Below are positions 2,165 to 10,284 of a stretch of 35,694 nt of DNA, one piece after another. Position 1 is the stretch's first letter, and each line of letters starts with the position of its first letter. Below the pieces are notes generated by a model. The model ran no database searches. It worked only from the letters and a program-made list of their open reading frames with translations, and had not been told where the DNA came from. Source of the DNA: Gallionella sp. GTDB taxonomy: Bacteria; Pseudomonadota; Gammaproteobacteria; Burkholderiales; Gallionellaceae. Both the position numbers and the translations under genes were made by a program. Location: the NCBI GenBank assembly GCA_025350705.1, contig JANXXH010000065.1, positions 1 through 35,694 of the forward strand. Direction: 5' to 3'.

Positions 2165-3043
2165 TCAGCTTTCCGCGATCCGCTCGTGATAGCGCGCGCG
2201 ATACAGCAGGCGAGATCTGCCCAGGCCATCGCTGAACGCTGCCCGATCATGCAGCACGTTGTTGCACAACAGCCCCATGCCGGGTTCGAGCCGCGTGCGG
2301 TGGATGTGCGGCAAATCTGAATCAAGCAGTTTTTCCAGAGCGGCGACTGCCGCCAGCGTTGCTGCGTTCTGTTTCCAAACTATGCTGCGGGTGCGTGCGG
2401 TATAGCGCATGTGCAGCGCACCGCTTGCCGGGTCTGTCGAAAACACCGGGCCGGTCTGTACGGCGCGCGCCACGCCTTGTTCATCGGTGCGTTCCGGTAT
2501 CGTCATCGCGTCCGGCGCGGACAGCGCGTGGATGAAGTCGATATTTTCATCGCGCAATATCAGGTAAGCGATCTCGTGATCCATCAGCCGGTTCTCGCCG
2601 CCTTGACCGGCGCTCTCCACGCAATGCAATACAAAGCTGCGCACTTGGCGTTCGGGTGGATTGTAATAACCGTCGGTATGCCATTTGATCGCGCGATCGG
2701 TATAGGGGATATACGCCTGCCGCTGCCCATCGTCGGCGCACACGGTGACGCGTGTGATGCCTTTTTCACCCGCCAGCCAGTTTGCATCCAGACTATTAAG
2801 CCCGAACTGCAATCCGAATTGGCGCACGGCCTCTTCATCAACTGGCTTGGTATGTGTGGCATAGATCACCATGTTGCTGCGCTGGCATCGTTCCAGTAGC
2901 GCGGTATATTCAGTTTTAGAAAGTGCGCGGGGATCCTTGATTTCGACGATCAACTCGGCAGTGTTGGTGATGGCATGCGCCAGCTTGTGATCGCGCCAGC
3001 GCAGATAGGCAGGGGTGTTGTCGAGAACGAATGGATTTTGCAT
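2165..3043 (-). CDS. TauD/TfdA-like Fe(II)/2-oxoglutarate dioxygenase family protein
   Basis: A 292-residue protein of the TauD/TfdA family. The metal-binding triad is visible: His122 and Asp124 in KWHTDGYYNPP, and the distal His265 in NNVLHDRAAF. Arginines near the C-terminus (RSRLLYRARYHER) fit the 2-oxoglutarate-binding position. The family hydroxylates organic substrates, in TauD's case releasing sulfite from taurine; here the substrate is unknown. The ATG is preceded by an AGGA ribosome binding site. It is the last gene of the minus-strand accessory operon, separated from the preceding gene by about 150 bases holding a small repeat, so it may be transcribed separately. Location beside dsr hints at organosulfur chemistry, which is inference. 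Confidence 0.8.
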   Translation of the reverse strand: MQNPFVLDNTPAYLRWRDHKLAHAITNTAELIVEIKDPRALSKTEYTALLERCQRSNMVIYATHTKPVDEEAVRQFGLQFGLNSLDANWLAGEKGITRVTVCADDGQRQAYIPYTDRAIKWHTDGYYNPPERQVRSFVLHCVESAGQGGENRLMDHEIAYLILRDENIDFIHALSAPDAMTIPERTDEQGVARAVQTGPVFSTDPASGALHMRYTARTRSIVWKQNAATLAAVAALEKLLDSDLPHIHRTRLEPGMGLLCNNVLHDRAAFSDGLGRSRLLYRARYHERIAES

Positions 3044-3810: not shown

Positions 3811-4302
3811 CTAGCGCCAGCCCTTTTGCAGGTAGAACTCATACTCGCCTGGGGTCGCCTCTATAGTGCTGAGGATTTTAACCCCGGTCATGTCTGCCCA
3901 GCCCACGATGTCAGAACGGATGCCGGGACAGTTGCTGATGAGTTTGAGAACTTCTCCCGCATTCATGCCGTTCAACAGCTTCTTGGCTTCGACGATGGGG
4001 CCGGGGCAGAGCACGCCGCGAATATCCAGAATGACATGCGCCTTGAGCGACTCTCCTTTACCTTTCATGATGTAGTAGCCCGTGCCGACATCCGGCATCG
4101 CTTCTGTCTTCAATATGTCATTGCCGGTCTGTTCCGCCCAGGAGAAAAGATCGTCCTTGGTGCCCGGGCAGTCCGAGATCAACAGCAGTATTTGCTCATT
4201 TTTCATATCGTCGACTACGCGCTTGGCACCGAGCAATGGTGCGGGGCAGGTTTGGCCGCGCATATCCAGTGTCACATTGGCGTGCAAGTCTTGAGTGCTC
4301 AT
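3811..4302 (-). CDS. Tandem double-TusA domain protein
   Basis: A 163-residue protein made of two TusA domains in a row. Domain 1 (about residues 8-80) has GQTCPAPLLGAKR with Cys19; domain 2 (about 88-163) has GVLCPGPIVEAKK with Cys99. Each also has a second cysteine in a matching place, SDCPGTKDD (Cys45) and SNCPGIRSD (Cys125), where the single-domain TusA at the left edge of the window has SDSGSVKD. So each unit could form a disulfide, trisulfide or metal site. The two halves resemble each other more than either resembles the single TusA, consistent with internal duplication. The ATG follows an AGGACA ribosome binding site. Its neighbours are a DsrC-like gene upstream and a 198-aa unknown downstream. 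A persulfide-relay or storage role is inferred. Confidence 0.85.
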   Translation of the reverse strand: MSTQDLHANVTLDMRGQTCPAPLLGAKRVVDDMKNEQILLLISDCPGTKDDLFSWAEQTGNDILKTEAMPDVGTGYYIMKGKGESLKAHVILDIRGVLCPGPIVEAKKLLNGMNAGEVLKLISNCPGIRSDIVGWADMTGVKILSTIEATPGEYEFYLQKGWR

Positions 4303-4338: not shown

Positions 4339-4668
4339 TCAATATCCGCCCTTGCCATATGGCTGCGGCAGGCCGGCCACTTTTGCACCTTGTTTGGCGG
4401 GCCCGGTCGGAAATAAATCATACAGGGCCTTGCTGTCTGCCTCCGGCCAGAATTCATTGACACCCTTTAACATATTGCGGAAATTGGGCGTGTGTCCGTG
4501 TTCGCGGTACTGGTCGCGCATATAGTTGATGACCTGCCAATGCTTGGGTGTCAGCCCGATATTTTCTGCCGCCGCAATGACGCTAACGATTTCTTCACTA
4601 TAATCCGGCTCCAGTAAATAACCATCTGCATCGGTTTCAAGCTCTTTGCCACCAATCATGTATCCCAT
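4339..4668 (-). CDS. DsrC/TusE-family paralogue lacking both C-terminal cysteines (RspA-like)
   Basis: A 109-residue protein with the DsrC/TusE fold: YLLEPDYSEEIVSVIAAAEN, LTPKHWQVINYMRDQY, NMLKG, LYDLFPTGPAKQGAKVAGLP. The canonical C-terminal arm GKQACKIAGLPKPTGCV is here replaced by AKQGAKVAGLPQPYGKGGY, so both redox cysteines are gone, and the protein has no cysteine at all. It therefore cannot act as a DsrC trisulfide carrier. Cysteine-less DsrC homologues have been grouped as RspA, for presumed regulatory sulfur-related proteins. The start at 4668 is chosen over an in-frame ATG at 4704 because a full AAGGAGG site lies directly upstream. The gene is 25 bases after the Cas6-like gene. A regulatory role, perhaps at the dsr promoter, is inference. 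Confidence 0.85.
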   Translation of the reverse strand: MGYMIGGKELETDADGYLLEPDYSEEIVSVIAAAENIGLTPKHWQVINYMRDQYREHGHTPNFRNMLKGVNEFWPEADSKALYDLFPTGPAKQGAKVAGLPQPYGKGGY

Positions 4669-4693: not shown

Positions 4694-5320
4694 TCAAGCT
4701 GCACTCAAACCGGAAATGACTTTATAAGGTACAAAAATACCACAACCAAATTGCCGGCCTTCTCCCAACCCGGAAAATTGCAATTGTAGCGACGCCATGG
4801 GCGTTAGATCGTGTATAACCAAACTATATCCCTGTAGAGATTGCCGGTCACCGTTGATGGTGTGCCGTTTGCCGCAGATCAAGTTACCTTTGATCTTCAT
4901 TTCACCCAGTTGTGTGTTGATGTGCTCCACGAAAAGCACCTCGTCGCTGATACCCGTTACCAGTTGCGCGTGTATGGTGGGGTAGGGCTGGATGGGGCGC
5001 TCCTTCGCAGCTCCCAAGCGCAGGGTGCTGCCGGCTAGATCGAGCTGTTGTCCTGTCAAACGAGTTGCAGTGTGCTCTGCGAGTATGGTTGGCAAGCGCA
5101 TTACCAGTTTGGAACGTTTAGGTAGCAATATCCTTTCGCTGTTTGCCGTTCCGCGTAACGGCAAAACTCCAACCAGCCTTTGTTCTGAAAGTTCCGGGAC
5201 TCGGCGTATCAGTGCCGCCCATAGTGCAAAGGGATAAGTGGCGGGTATCGTCCCGCCGTCAAGATCGAATACCATGTCGATCATTTCTGGAAGAGTGTCA
5301 AATATTCGTTGGTCAGGCAT
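4694..5320 (-). CDS. Cas6/Cmx6-like (type I-MYXAN Cas6 family) protein without a CRISPR array
   Basis: A 208-residue protein that matches the pattern of the Cas6/Cmx6 family as I know it. It has an N-terminal VFDLDGGTIP strand, YPFALWAAL helix start, GVLPLRGT, a RSKLVMRLP strand, then a second half with HAQLVTG, NLICGKRHTI, GYSLVIHDL and the diagnostic glycine-rich loop GLGEGRQFGCGIFVPYK near the C-terminus. The fold would be two ferredoxin-like/RRM domains that bind and cut repeat RNA hairpins in CRISPR systems. Here no repeat array or other cas gene is visible and the gene sits inside a sulfur operon, 7 bases from the 69-aa gene and 25 bases from the DsrC-like gene. The histidine I would expect in the G(I/V)HP segment is Leu53, so catalysis is doubtful. 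The ribosome binding site is weak. Confidence 0.7.
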   Translation of the reverse strand: MPDQRIFDTLPEMIDMVFDLDGGTIPATYPFALWAALIRRVPELSEQRLVGVLPLRGTANSERILLPKRSKLVMRLPTILAEHTATRLTGQQLDLAGSTLRLGAAKERPIQPYPTIHAQLVTGISDEVLFVEHINTQLGEMKIKGNLICGKRHTINGDRQSLQGYSLVIHDLTPMASLQLQFSGLGEGRQFGCGIFVPYKVISGLSAA

Positions 5321-5327
5321 TCGTCGG

Positions 5328-5537
5328 TTATTTTTGAGAGTTTGCCCAGTTTTGCATGGCCGCAGCCCATTGTTCTGCAGTTGCGGGGTCGATGTCGAAA
5401 ATCGTAAACCGTTTGCCCTCGCGGATACGGATACGCAACAAACTCATGCCGCCTTCGGCATGGTCTATCTGCTGTAATTCAATCTCCTGGCTACCTAACG
5501 GAACCTTGATTTTTATTAATTCGCTGATTTGTGCCAT
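5328..5537 (-). CDS. Small 69-aa protein, first gene of the divergent accessory operon
   Basis: Not recognised by function. The 69-residue product begins MAQISELIKIKVPLG and continues with alternating strands (EIELQQID, SLLRIRIREGKRFTIFDID) and a C-terminal helix (PATAEQWAAAMQNWA), suggesting a small beta-sheet plus helix domain. There are no cysteines. The frame is open back to 5597, but the ATG at 5537 has the clear ribosome binding site GAGGTGA and the upstream part runs into a dispersed repeat, so the shorter form is chosen. It is the promoter-proximal gene of the minus-strand unit and ends 7 bases before the Cas6-like gene, so the two are probably translated from one message and may act together. 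Confidence 0.65.
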   Translation of the reverse strand: MAQISELIKIKVPLGSQEIELQQIDHAEGGMSLLRIRIREGKRFTIFDIDPATAEQWAAAMQNWANSQK

Positions 5538-5584
5538 TATGTTCACCTCTCGATTGTCGTGATGCTCGCGCAGCGATACGTTTG

Positions 5585-5620
5585 CCCCCTCGCCCATCGG
5601 GAGAGGGTTGGGGAGAGGGA
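5585..5620. repeat. Dispersed CCCTC/GAGGG intergenic repeat
   Basis: A sequence of the CCCTCGCCC-ATCGG-GAGAGGG type followed by TTGGGGAGAGGG. The arms CCCTC (5587-5591) and GAGGG (5603-5607) can pair. This is a widespread intergenic repeat type in proteobacteria. It overlaps the frame upstream of the 69-aa gene's true start, which helps reject the longer start there. Confidence 0.6.
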
Positions 5621-5780
5621 AACGGGCATGGCGGTTTCATCATCAGGTACGGCATCTTTGCCATGCTCGTTAGCTTAACCGTAACCCTCATCTGGGGTAT
5701 TCTGAACGAGAATCTGCAACGGTTTCAGTTTATCGCTAATATGCTTGATATTGAAATACTACTGGGGAAAATGAAATACT

Positions 5781-5815
5781 ACCCTTAAGGGTTATTAGCG
5801 ATAACCGCTAAGGGT
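5781..5815. repeat. Imperfect 15-bp inverted repeat upstream of dsrA
   Basis: The left arm 5781-5795 and the right arm 5801-5815 are complementary at 13 of 15 positions around a TAGCG centre. No T-tract follows, so it is not a terminator. It overlaps the second TGAAATACTAC copy and lies shortly upstream of a candidate dsrA promoter, so an operator or activator site is the best guess. Confidence 0.5.
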
Positions 5816-5827
5816 GATGGAATGCTG

Positions 5828-5855
5828 TAGACAATATATCGTAGTATTCTAATAC
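5828..5855 (+). promoter_or_regulatory. Candidate sigma-70-type promoter for dsrA
   Basis: TAGACA (5828-5833) and TAATAC (5850-5855) are separated by 16 bases and lie about 145 bases before the dsrA ATG. The match to consensus is moderate for the -35 element and poor for the -10 element. The inverted GTAGTATT half-site falls in the spacer, which would allow regulation. Position and AT-richness support it; no experimental sign is visible. Confidence 0.3.
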
Positions 5856-6000
5856 ACTAAGAAATATGGGCGAGCCGCATGGTATAAACGGTGGAGCCCG
5901 AACAAGATATCAAGAAAACAAGCCCCGCCTCTGCCGGGTCATTATTGAATCGTTTGCCAGCAGTCAGCCCCAGGCGACGCGACTTAAAGGAGAATTTATT

Positions 6001-7299
6001 ATGGCTAAGAAGATGCATGATACCCCGAATCTTGATCAGCTCGAGAGTGGTCCGTGGCCCAGTTTTGTGACCGGCCTGAAAGAACTGGCCAAGAATAAAG
6101 ATTACGTCGTGGATCTGTTGGGGCAGCTCGAAACCTCATACCGAACCAAAAAAGGTTATTGGAAAGGCGGCACGGTCGGCGTGTTTGGCTATGGCGGCGG
6201 AATCATCCCGCGCTTTACCGAGCTTAAAGACGACAAGGGCCAACCTGTTTACAAAGACTGCGCAGAATTTCACACGCTGCGTGTGATGCCGCCAGCCGGC
6301 ATGCACTACGATACCAAGGTGCTGCGCGACATGTGCGATATCTGGGAGGAACATGGCTCGGGTTTGATCGCCTTCCATGGCCAGTCCGGCGACATCATGT
6401 TCCAGGGCGCGACCACAGAAAACGTGCAAAAGGCTTTTGATGATATCAATGAGCTGGGTTTCGATCTGGGCGGTGCGGGTCCGGCGGTGCGTACTTCGAT
6501 GTCTTGCGTGGGCGCTGCGCGCTGCGAGCAATCCTGCTATGACGAAGCCAAGGCGCATCGTACTGTGTTGAATACTTTTCTGGATGACATCCATCGTCCT
6601 TCCTTGCCGTACAAGTTCAAATTCAAATTTTCCGGCTGCCCGAACGACTGCATGAATTCCGTTCAGCGCGCTGACATGGCCGTAATCGGAACCTGGCGCG
6701 ACAATATCCGCACCGATGAAGAGTTGGCGAAGAAATGGTTCGCCAAACACGGTATGGACGAGCTGGTGAATGATGTGGTTGCGCGTTGCCCGACCAAGAC
6801 ATTCCAGCTCAAGCAGATCAAGAACGTCAAGAAGGGAGACAGCATCTCCAGCGTTGCGATCAGTGACACCCACGCGATAGAGATCGATAACCGCGATTGC
6901 GTGCGCTGCATGCACTGCATCAACGTGATGACGGGCGCGCTGGCTCCCGGTAAAGACAAGGGCGCGACGATCCTGGTGGGCGGCAAGCGTACCCTCAAGA
7001 TCGGCGATTTGATGGGCACGGTGGTCATTCCGTTCATGAAGCTCGATACGGATGAAGACATGGCGAAGCTGGTCGACCTCGGCCAGCGTATCATCGACTT
7101 CTTTGCAGAGAATGCGCTCGAGCACGAACGTACCGGTGAAATGATCGAACGTATCGGCCTGGTCAATTTCCTTGAAGCGCTGGAAATCGAGGTGGATTCA
7201 AATATGGTCTCGACGCCACGGATGAATCCTTATGTTCGCACTGATGGCTGGGATGAGGAAGTCGCCAAGATCAACGCCAAAAAACTGGCTGCTGCCTGA
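6001..7299 (+). CDS. dsrA: Reverse dissimilatory sulfite reductase alpha subunit DsrA
   Basis: A 432-residue alpha subunit of cytoplasmic siroheme sulfite reductase. The siroheme-linked [4Fe-4S] cysteines are visible as CVGAARC (Cys169, Cys175) and CPNDC (Cys213, Cys217). The inserted ferredoxin domain has CVRCMHC (Cys300, 303, 306) with Cys263 as the likely fourth ligand. In sulfur oxidisers DsrAB releases sulfite from sulfur carried by DsrC. The frame is open from 5866, but the ATG at 6001 is chosen for its AAAGGAG ribosome binding site and the standard MAKKMHDTPNLDQLE start. It leads the dsr operon and dsrB follows after 11 bases. The presence of dsrEFH and dsrL downstream shows the oxidative type, not the sulfate-reducer type. 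Confidence 0.97.
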   Translation: MAKKMHDTPNLDQLESGPWPSFVTGLKELAKNKDYVVDLLGQLETSYRTKKGYWKGGTVGVFGYGGGIIPRFTELKDDKGQPVYKDCAEFHTLRVMPPAGMHYDTKVLRDMCDIWEEHGSGLIAFHGQSGDIMFQGATTENVQKAFDDINELGFDLGGAGPAVRTSMSCVGAARCEQSCYDEAKAHRTVLNTFLDDIHRPSLPYKFKFKFSGCPNDCMNSVQRADMAVIGTWRDNIRTDEELAKKWFAKHGMDELVNDVVARCPTKTFQLKQIKNVKKGDSISSVAISDTHAIEIDNRDCVRCMHCINVMTGALAPGKDKGATILVGGKRTLKIGDLMGTVVIPFMKLDTDEDMAKLVDLGQRIIDFFAENALEHERTGEMIERIGLVNFLEALEIEVDSNMVSTPRMNPYVRTDGWDEEVAKINAKKLAAA

Positions 7300-7310
7300 G
7301 GAGATATAAA

Positions 7311-8408
7311 ATGAACCAAGTCGTTCAAGCCGAGAAGCCCGCCGCAAAGCGTAAACCCAAAGAAACCGGGGTGCCGGACAACAAGAAGTACCTCCATCCC
7401 CTGATGGTGAAAAACTACGGCCAGTGGAAATATCATGACCGTCCCCGCCCCGGCGTGCTGCGCCATGTGGCTCATAGTGGCGACCAGATCTGGACGATAC
7501 GTGCCGGCACACAGCGGCAAATGGACGTGGGCACGATACGCTTGTTATGCGATATCGGTGACAAGTTTGCGGAAGGTCATGTGCGCTTCACGATCCGCTC
7601 CAACATCGAATTCATGGTGTCCAAGGCAGAAAAGGTCGATCCGCTGATCGCCGAGCTGGAAAAGCACGGCTTCCCTGTGGGCGGCACCGGCAACTCGATT
7701 TCGATGATCTCCCACACGCAAGGCTGGCTGCACTGTGACATTCCGGGTACGGATGCGTCCGGTGTGGTCAAGGCGCTGATGGATGATCTGATCGTGGAAT
7801 TCAAGCGCGAAGAGATGCCTAATCGTGTTCATCTTTCCACCTCGTGCTGTGAGATCAACTGCGGCGGACAGGCCGACATCGCGATCATCGTTCAACATAC
7901 CAAGCCGCCCGTGATCAATCACGATCTGGTTGCCAACGTGTGCGAGCGTCCGACGGTTGTGGCGCGCTGCCCTGTCGCCGCGATACGCCCGGCCATGGTT
8001 AATGGCAAGCCCTCTTTGGAAATCGACGAGTCCAAATGTATGTGCTGCGGCGCTTGCTACCCGCCTTGTCCGCCGATGCAGATCAATGACCCGGAGTATT
8101 CCAAGCTGGCGATCTGGGTGGGCGGTAAAAATTCCAACGCGCGCGGCAAGCCTACTTTCATGAAGATGGTCGCGTCCGGTCTGCCCAACAATCCACCGAG
8201 ATGGCCAGAAGTCAACGAGGTGGTGAAGCGCATTCTGCATGTGTACAAGGAAGATGCCCGTCCATGGGAGCGCATGGCTGACTGGATCGAACGTATCGGA
8301 TGGCCGCGTTTTTTTGAGAAGACCGGGCTGCCTTTCACCAAGTATCTGATTGACGACTGGCGCGGTTCACGTGCCACCTTCAATGCTTCGACGCATATCA
8401 GGTTTTGA
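7311..8408 (+). CDS. dsrB: Reverse dissimilatory sulfite reductase beta subunit DsrB
   Basis: A 365-residue beta subunit that pairs with DsrA in an alpha2-beta2 enzyme. Siroheme-cluster cysteines are Cys142 (GWLHCDIPG) and the CCEINC group (Cys179, 180, 184). The ferredoxin domain has CMCCGACYPPC (Cys243-253) with Cys220 in ARCPVAA. The C-terminus WIERIGWPRFFEKTGLPFT is typical of DsrB. Each alpha-beta pair forms the siroheme active site at the subunit interface. The ATG follows a strong AGGAGA site. A basic, lysine-rich tail (about residues 8-18) precedes the core. It sits directly between dsrA and a cytochrome c'-like gene, where most dsr operons go straight to dsrE. Confidence 0.97.
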   Translation: MNQVVQAEKPAAKRKPKETGVPDNKKYLHPLMVKNYGQWKYHDRPRPGVLRHVAHSGDQIWTIRAGTQRQMDVGTIRLLCDIGDKFAEGHVRFTIRSNIEFMVSKAEKVDPLIAELEKHGFPVGGTGNSISMISHTQGWLHCDIPGTDASGVVKALMDDLIVEFKREEMPNRVHLSTSCCEINCGGQADIAIIVQHTKPPVINHDLVANVCERPTVVARCPVAAIRPAMVNGKPSLEIDESKCMCCGACYPPCPPMQINDPEYSKLAIWVGGKNSNARGKPTFMKMVASGLPNNPPRWPEVNEVVKRILHVYKEDARPWERMADWIERIGWPRFFEKTGLPFTKYLIDDWRGSRATFNASTHIRF

Positions 8409-9948: not shown

Positions 9949-10284
9949 ATGTCCAGCATTGAAGTAAGCAGTAAATCCTACGAAACGGATGAAGAGGGTT
10001 ATCTCGTTAATCTGTCCGACTGGAACAAGGAAATTGCTGACTACATCGCCAAAACTGAAAACGTCGACATGACCGATCAGCATTGGGAAGTTATAAATTT
10101 TCTGCGTGAATATTTTGAAGAATATCAAATCGCTCCTGCAGTTCGCGTGTTGACCAAGGCGATAGGCAAAAAGTTGGGCGCGGAAAAGGGCAACAGTGAG
10201 TATTTGTATGGCTTGTTTCCTTATGGCCCAGGCAAGCAGGCTTGCAAGATCGCCGGATTGCCCAAGCCTACCGGCTGCGTCTGA
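9949..10284 (+). CDS. dsrC: Sulfur carrier DsrC with both redox cysteines
   Basis: A 111-residue DsrC, the substrate-carrying protein of the pathway. The flexible C-terminal arm GKQACKIAGLPKPTGCV keeps both redox cysteines, Cys99 and Cys110, which form the trisulfide or disulfide handled by DsrAB and DsrMKJOP. LTDQ-type helix-turn-helix-like core (MTDQHWEVINFLREYFEEY) is intact. The ATG at 9949 has an AAGGAGA site and gives the family start; an earlier in-frame ATG at 9907 overlaps dsrH and is rejected. Contrast with the cysteine-less paralogue at 4339-4668: the two share the core but not the arm. Confidence 0.96.
   Translation: MSSIEVSSKSYETDEEGYLVNLSDWNKEIADYIAKTENVDMTDQHWEVINFLREYFEEYQIAPAVRVLTKAIGKKLGAEKGNSEYLYGLFPYGPGKQACKIAGLPKPTGCV

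Follow-up and report, generated by a model that had tools for sequence, protein, structure and literature searches.

Why does a gene of the CRISPR-associated Cas6 family lie in a sulfur-oxidation operon, and what might its product do there? The gene in question occupies positions 4694-5320 of the window, by which we mean the whole 35,694-nucleotide stretch of Gallionella sp. DNA that was analysed (contig JANXXH010000065.1). A sequence-only reading of this DNA had taken the product for a Cas6/Cmx6-like protein in an operon without a CRISPR array, and had proposed its reuse in dsr regulation or RNA processing.

The gene at 4694-5320 codes for a Cas6 homologue

Across 4694-5320 the plus strand is interrupted by stops, and it is the minus strand that carries the open reading frame. 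The reading frame called earlier is real, and the segments quoted from its 208-residue product are all found in it: NLICGKRHTI at residues 146-155, GYSLVIHDL at 164-172 and the glycine-rich loop GLGEGRQFGCGIFVPYK at 184-200. Residue 53 is Leu, as had been claimed. Profile searches gave Cas6 as the best match, with no unrelated family ahead of it; the protein scored 175.5 bits with PF09559 (E 1.5e-51; curated cut-off 26.7) and 143.9 bits with TIGR02807 (cut-off 98.85). It also matches PDB 8fcj (E 1.1e-15), and by fold it matches 3qjj ("One RAMP protein binding different RNA substrates"), 3ufc ("Cas6-related gene from P. furiosus") and 3i4h (Pfu Cas6). The last three are archaeal structures, none of which is known to be linked to a metabolic operon. 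Two RRM (ferredoxin-like) domains and the C-terminal glycine-rich loop, both expected of the Cas6 family, are present, and Gly184, Gly186, Arg189 and Gly194 of the loop are invariant both in a 17-sequence set and in the 42 sequences of the window's lineage. We conclude that the protein is a Cas6 homologue, and its predicted fold is that of Cas6. It is the single PF09559 match in its own genome. Over 10 pairwise comparisons among five close sequences omega was 0.11-0.24, indicative of purifying selection; together with the existence of relatives, these values rule out a chance or decaying reading frame.

The gene is the second in an operon that runs away from dsrA (Table 1), so that the earlier view of it as a member of the accessory operon, and not a stray cas gene, is borne out. 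The spacing given then is also correct, with 7 bases to the upstream gene at 5328-5537 and 25 to the downstream DsrC-like gene, the latter if the internal ATG at 4668 is the start. Behind dsrA, the genes dsrF, dsrH, dsrC, dsrM, dsrJ and cysG were named by NCBIfam profiles; dsrB, dsrE, dsrK, dsrL, dsrO, dsrP and dsrN were assigned from gene order and sequence, the profile name for dsrL being only "NAD(P)-binding protein". Of the 117 stretches of the class sample described below (other Gammaproteobacteria), 70 have a TauD-like gene in the vicinity of the Cas6-like gene, the median place being just upstream.

Table 1. Features of the window around the Cas6-like gene
Feature	Coordinates	Strand	Remarks
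TauD/TfdA-like dioxygenase	2165..3043	minus	frequent neighbour of the Cas6-like gene and dsr elsewhere
Conserved protein, family unknown, 198 aa	3197..3793	minus	also near the Cas6-like gene in other Gammaproteobacteria
Tandem TusA-domain protein	3811..4302	minus	two PF01206 stretches
DsrC paralogue with neither C-terminal cysteine, tail ...AGLPQPYGKGGY	4339..4668	minus	TIGR03342 match; in most related loci it is the partner of the Cas6-like gene
Cas6-fold protein gene (PF09559/TIGR02807)	4694..5320	minus	208 aa, ATG start; Tyr29, Leu53; G-rich loop 184-200 intact
DUF6967 protein (PF22295)	5328..5537	minus	E 1.8e-31; opens the accessory operon, with 7 bases between it and the Cas6-like gene; start taken at an internal ATG
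Upstream region common to both operons	5538..6000	.	palindrome ACCCTTAAGGGT at 5781-5792; promoter-like matches only
dsrA	6001..7299	plus	profile 507.8 bits; divergent from the accessory operon
dsrB	7311..8408	plus	weak match to the dsrA profile (88.8 bits), and position; 11-base gap after dsrA, no hairpin
Canonical dsrC, both C-terminal cysteines (...KQACKIAGLPKPTGCV)	9949..10284	plus	contrast to 4339-4668

The Cas6-like gene accompanies dsrA

A survey of dsr-bearing genomes for the same gene had been suggested by the sequence-only reading. In samples taken at the level of order, family and class, the link holds over hundreds of genomes. Among the 399 genomes of the order sample PF09559 was found in 80 and dsrA (threshold 1e-60) in 87; both occurred in 80 genomes and dsrA only in 7. 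In 79 of these 80 the Cas6-like gene is adjacent to and divergent from dsrA, with 416-4969 bases between the matches, and in the remaining genome the contig with the gene has no dsrA. The family sample (158 genomes) had both genes in 85 genomes, PF09559 only in 3, dsrA only in 3 and neither in 67, the dsrA count of 88 being made up of 85 genomes above the profile cut-off and of partial matches in G113, G143 and G152. The three genomes with PF09559 only (G039, G117, G127) do match the dsrA profile, at 2.5e-7 to 1.5e-22, but more weakly, and these matches were left out of the count. Adjacent and divergent placement was seen for 86 of the 91 PF09559 matches, the remaining 5 being on contigs without dsrA.

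In the class sample (369 genomes) PF09559 was found in 118, and the surroundings were examined for the 117 besides the window's own, so that the counts start from carriers of the gene. In 81 of the 117, dsrA lies inside the examined stretch, divergent in every case (81/81), and in 68 of these 81 a DsrC-like gene lies at most 1.5 kb downstream of the Cas6-like gene. The 36 stretches without dsrA comprise 18 cut off by a contig end within 5 kb on the dsrA side, one with dsrE to dsrP (G808) and 17 with at least 5 kb and no dsr. At a threshold of 1e-40, dsrA was present elsewhere in the genome in 28 of the 35 of these that were searched, including all 17 in which the gene stands away from dsr. The 7 searched genomes without dsrA at 1e-40 all have little sequence on the dsrA side; among them, a fragment of dsrA lies next to the gene in G859, and G858 has a dsrN-like gene. 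Altogether, dsrA occurs in 109 of the 117 class genomes, G808 and G859 have partial dsr, and 6 draft assemblies are without dsrA. That the gene is not beside dsr in 17 of 117 class genomes means that co-regulation through location is not universal. The phylum sample, which was scored for PF09559 only and so carries little weight, had one match in 160 genomes, that of the window's own genome.

The gene is also retained beside dsr in genomes of about 1.0-1.1 Mb (G582, G684, G796, G828, G891). In the small genomes G651, G767 and G865 (1.4-1.6 Mb; loci L117, L119 and L222) it is found away from dsr, beside a putative rnc (RNase III)-era pair, and is divergent from the putative rnc in all three. 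One IMG/VR scan with a small-genome relative as query detected no carriage by phages.

The occurrence of the gene with dsrA is thus nearly one to one, and its usual place is divergent beside dsrAB. We are highly confident that it is part of the oxidative (reverse) Dsr module, linked to dsr and not to CRISPR. The proposed reuse outside CRISPR stands; the picture of a local oddity does not, since the gene generally accompanies oxidative dsr in the sampled Gammaproteobacteria.

The gene is not tied to CRISPR

No CRISPR-like array was found in the window, in which direct repeats of at least 20 bases within 120 bases gave one two-copy family only and a crude array scan gave none. The absence of CRISPR noted earlier holds for the window; it does not extend to an absence of cas genes from the whole genome, because a type I-C operon, cas3-cas5c-cas8c-cas7, is present on contig C76 (L243, 808-6898). 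These genes are neither near the Cas6-like gene nor of a kind that uses Cas6. Type I-C has no Cas6 according to the available part of PMC5944118, and Cas5 probably replaces it (PMC3150331, available part). Neither cas1 nor DevR/Cas7 was found in the window's genome, which is 87% complete. In the family sample cas1 occurs in 66 of 158 genomes, and the Cas6-like gene is found in 33 of the 66 genomes with cas1 versus 55 of the 92 without (Fisher p 0.26).

Two of the features that define a CRISPR Cas6 by function, a catalytic His after the first RRM strand and a context of cas genes or a CRISPR array, were looked for, and neither was found here. As to context, the matches adjoin dsrA (79/80 in the order sample and 86/91 in the family sample), and the type I-C operon of this genome lies on a different contig. 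Type I-B CAST Cas6 (PDB 8fcj/8fcu) and type I-MYXAN Cas6/Cmx6 (TIGR02807) are encoded in cas or transposon loci, whereas the window protein is encoded at dsr. Seven plasmid records hold relatives of the protein, all cyanobacterial and annotated as type I-MYXAN Cas6, and 6 of the 7 lie within cas operons. The exception, on a Gloeobacter morelensis plasmid (L232, 5977-6768), is a Cas6/Cmx6 gene with no other cas gene nearby and with a PAPS reductase family gene in its vicinity. The NCBI "equivalog" cut-off for type I-MYXAN Cas6 was passed by all 10 relatives from dsr genomes that were tested, 9 of which stand beside dsr. Surveys may therefore count a CRISPR gene where none exists.

The candidate catalytic histidines are lost in the window's lineage

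Residues were compared in an alignment of 195 sequences, in window numbering, from which the short L018 and L225 and identical sequences had been removed beforehand. The window's lineage comprises 42 sequences, 40 from Gallionellaceae together with L015 and L016, which group together in the tree with a support of 1.0. With a midpoint root, the 8 plasmid and CAST tips stand apart from the dsr-linked members (support 0.985).

At position 29 (the "DH" motif) all 42 sequences of the window's lineage have Tyr; His is found in 25 of 30 other Burkholderiales sequences, in 115 of 116 from other Gammaproteobacteria and, in contrast to the window protein, in 7/7 of the cyanobacterial type I-MYXAN plasmid references, and the CAST protein has Asn. 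At position 53 (the "GIH" motif) the lineage has Leu, Ile or Val (42/42), and His is found in 26/30, 109/116 and 0/7 of the same three groups and in the CAST protein. Both histidines are kept in 108 of the 116 other gammaproteobacterial and 24 of the 30 other Burkholderiales sequences. Hence the lack of the expected His at position 53, pointed out by the sequence-only reading, applies to the window's lineage; it is not a mark of the dsr-linked family as a whole.

In Cas6, the catalytic His sits right behind strand 1 of the first RRM (PMC3150331, available part). This placement appears to fit position 29, yet the CAST protein has its His at position 53 only. At position 29 the candidate catalytic His of a CRISPR Cas6 endoribonuclease is missing from the window protein and from 42/42 sequences of its lineage. 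One Cas6 with an atypical active site has been reported (PMC3652601, available part), so that loss of the His is no proof of inactivity. Two other residues set the dsr-type sequences apart from the plasmid references: Arg69 is found in 188/188 of the former versus 1/7 of the latter, and Lys200 in 181/188 (with Arg in 6) versus 0/7 (with one Arg). The residues of the G-rich loop are conserved.

The usual partner is a DsrC paralogue with a KGGY end

The product of 4339-4668 resembles the DsrC/TusE/RspA family by its match to TIGR03342; it differs by the KGGY end, seen in the copies read, and by its usual pairing with a Cas6-fold gene. Relatives of DsrC that lack the cysteines are known as RspA. 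The two cysteines of a DsrC sulfur carrier are not present in its tail. Among the distinct tails of the DsrC-like proteins encoded next to the Cas6-like gene, the KGGY end is found in 115/115 and the end cysteine in 0/115; a cysteine near the other position is kept in 9 of the 115 and gone in 106. The end cysteine is present in 24 of 31 distinct other (canonical) DsrC-like tails of the same set. In the Burkholderiales loci L049-L078 a copy of the partner was found in 29 of 30, with none for L073.

We searched 22 genomes with the KGGY-DsrC from G184, counting matches of at least 140 bits as high-scoring. Such a match was present in 6 of 7 genomes with the Cas6-like gene (G184 itself counted; G470 without), in 3 of the 9 that have dsr and lack the gene (G369, G427 and G455; G029, among the 6 others, is 64% complete) and in none of 6 genomes without dsr. 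In G369 the tail was read as KGGY and there is no Cas6-like gene within 4 kb of the match, and G427 and G455 are assigned by score only. By these counts (6/7, 3/9) the pairing of the Cas6-like gene with KGGY-DsrC is usual and not obligatory. We found no report of a DsrC relative paired with a Cas6-fold gene in the open literature, within the texts available. DsrC of A. vinosum reportedly binds the dsr promoter region; if it does, a regulator formed by the DsrC-like and Cas6-like proteins would be reasonable.

Leaders and intercistronic gaps yield no RNA target

No RNA target of the Cas6-like protein was found in the dsrA leaders and dsr operon gaps that were examined. With RNAalifold, several sets of dsrA leaders gave no convincing common RNA structure. 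For the stretch from -320 to -100 the strongest z values were -5.9 (all Gallionellaceae) and -6.3 (subset A), with -6.8 in a set of 7 genomes. Over the whole set the consensus was energetically weak (-2.8) and the structures varied between sets, and on these grounds a conserved RNA structure in the leader was rejected. The Gallionellaceae signal coincides with a palindromic, promoter-like block of DNA, and for this reason we read it as an operator and not as an RNA target.

The perfect palindrome within this block, at 5781-5792 upstream of dsrA, occurs once in the window and in 0 of 100 shuffles, and the block is conserved in Gallionellaceae. Near the palindrome, a TACTAC-n-GGG box recurs: of the 45 upstream regions in the Gallionellaceae set, 35 contain it. 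In our reading this looks like an operator of the NarL/LuxR type.

Hairpins in the gaps were scored at -12 kcal/mol with at least 7 pairs, a threshold set after part of the data had been inspected, and on this scale the gammaproteobacterial loci (L109-L225, L246-L285) have hairpins between dsrA and dsrB (A-B) in 52/74 and between dsrC and dsrM (C-M) in 65/70. The control junctions gave 14/71 (B-E), 6/70 (E-F), 2/70 (F-H), 7/70 (H-C) and 14/69 (M-K). The A-B and C-M hairpins are mostly not followed by a T-run (T-run in 0% and 11%). In the window's lineage hairpins were found at A-B in 0/17 and at C-M in 3/15, and L274, of the same Tyr/Leu type, has a hairpin at neither. Where both histidines are present, other Burkholderiales have hairpins in 11/22 (A-B) and 20/21 (C-M), and those with Asn/Gln in place of the histidines in 3/3 at each junction. 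Hairpins are likewise present in dsr genomes without the Cas6-like gene (A-B 4/6, C-M 5/5; a seventh, G299, gave no gap to score), which shows that they are independent of the gene. Conversely, both hairpins are missing, despite both histidines, at L115, L116, L198, L221 and L265, the first four of which belong to small genomes. Taken together, the hairpins of gene-less genomes, those of the Asn/Gln type and the lack of hairpins in small genomes with both histidines argue against hairpins made for the Cas6-like protein. Stem similarity within and between genomes was 6.66 versus 6.14 (p 0.004, with base composition uncontrolled). The intercistronic hairpins are a real pattern; as a substrate they were rejected, given their distribution and stems that are barely common within a genome, and we keep them as a lead only.

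Discussion

The explanation that we favour, at somewhat short of even chances, is that this is a Cas6-fold protein of the reverse Dsr module, outside CRISPR, which binds RNA and together with KGGY-DsrC tunes how the divergent dsr operon is expressed or how stable its transcripts are. RNA would be held through the retained G-rich loop and the two RRM domains. We lean towards RNA binding, to which the fold and the loop point; that the protein acts on dsr RNA or on dsr expression, as the location of its gene suggests, is a more tentative proposal. In the window's lineage (Tyr29/Leu53) the protein most likely binds without cutting, judging from the residues lost, and it may cut RNA in those lineages that retain the two histidines. 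That a conserved lineage has lost the histidines leaves room for a pure protein-binding role.

The strong rival is that the Cas6 fold was turned into a protein-protein adaptor that binds KGGY-DsrC, and perhaps also TusA or DsrEFH, and serves sulfur trafficking or Dsr assembly with no part in RNA. The invariant KGGY end of the usual partner, the tandem TusA gene beside it in the window, the search for an RNA target that gave none, and the purifying selection on close members of a lineage in which every sequence has lost the histidines all speak for such an adaptor. However, both histidines persist in most sequences of other Gammaproteobacteria and Burkholderiales, and the G-rich loop that faces RNA is likewise conserved; a pure adaptor would need neither. 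The DsrC paralogue is, moreover, retained in 3 of the 9 dsr genomes that have no Cas6-like gene. We regard the adaptor as less likely than not, and still as a serious contender.

It seems improbable that in the lineages with both histidines an active endoribonuclease cuts structured dsr transcripts at the dsrA-dsrB and dsrC-dsrM junctions and so sets subunit ratios, hairpins and catalytic residues alike having disappeared from the window's lineage. The concentration of hairpins mainly at these two junctions, mostly without a T-run, would be consistent with cutting, as would the window's lineage, which has neither A-B hairpins nor histidines. In A. vinosum, transcript levels of dsrEFH and dsrC exceed those of dsrA (as cited in the available part of PMC3397948), which also agrees with it. 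Nevertheless, the hairpins also occur where the gene is missing, the five loci named above have both histidines and neither hairpin, several genomes with a lost histidine retain the hairpins (3/3 at both junctions for the Asn/Gln type), two stems from one genome resemble each other hardly more than stems from different genomes do, and the correlation in the window's lineage amounts to one event.

We give still less weight to the idea that the protein handles tRNA or another cellular RNA, and not dsr mRNA, as a link in a sulfur relay. DsrEFH/DsrC resemble TusBCD/TusE, which feed tRNA thiolation, the gene is kept beside DsrC- and TusA-type genes, and a TusE-MnmA connection to tRNA is described in the available part of PMC3397948. 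But a partner DsrC that always lacks the end cysteine, and mostly the other, should not pass sulfur in the manner of TusE, and no tRNA-modifying gene was recognised among the conserved neighbours, part of which are annotated. Finally, an ordinary Cas6 serving CRISPR arrays in trans, brought to mind by the cyanobacterial type I-MYXAN relatives in cas operons and by the genome's own cas operon, is hardly credible and was rejected, since that operon is of type I-C, which has no Cas6 (PMC5944118; PMC3150331; available parts), there is no link to cas1, the link to dsrA is nearly one to one, and the candidate catalytic His is lost in the window's lineage.

The RNA-binding reading that we favour can be taken further, as a speculation that we think rather unlikely. 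A Cas6 endoribonuclease would have been domesticated into Dsr in ancient times; with the cysteine-poor KGGY-DsrC it would read the sulfur status and cut or hold structured transcripts, and in Gallionellaceae the cutter would have become a pure binder. No link between Cas6 and dsr was found in the open full-text literature (PMC) as far as its texts were available; papers there that contain both cas6 and dsrA mention cas6 in connection with CRISPR.

The Cas6-fold companion of oxidative Dsr is real and general, is misnamed by its database label, and points to an undescribed role in that pathway, probably one in RNA binding. If so, the "CRISPR-associated Cas6" of many sulfur oxidizers would be a missing part of reverse Dsr, kept regardless of cas1 and in genomes of about 1 Mb. 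A major step of the sulfur cycle would gain a further layer, likely at the RNA level or through an adaptor, and the protein would be a clear instance of the domestication of a Cas protein for a metabolic purpose. Should the ancient domestication sketched above also be true, a central enzyme of the sulfur cycle would be under control at the RNA level, a control retained even at a genome size of about 1 Mb.
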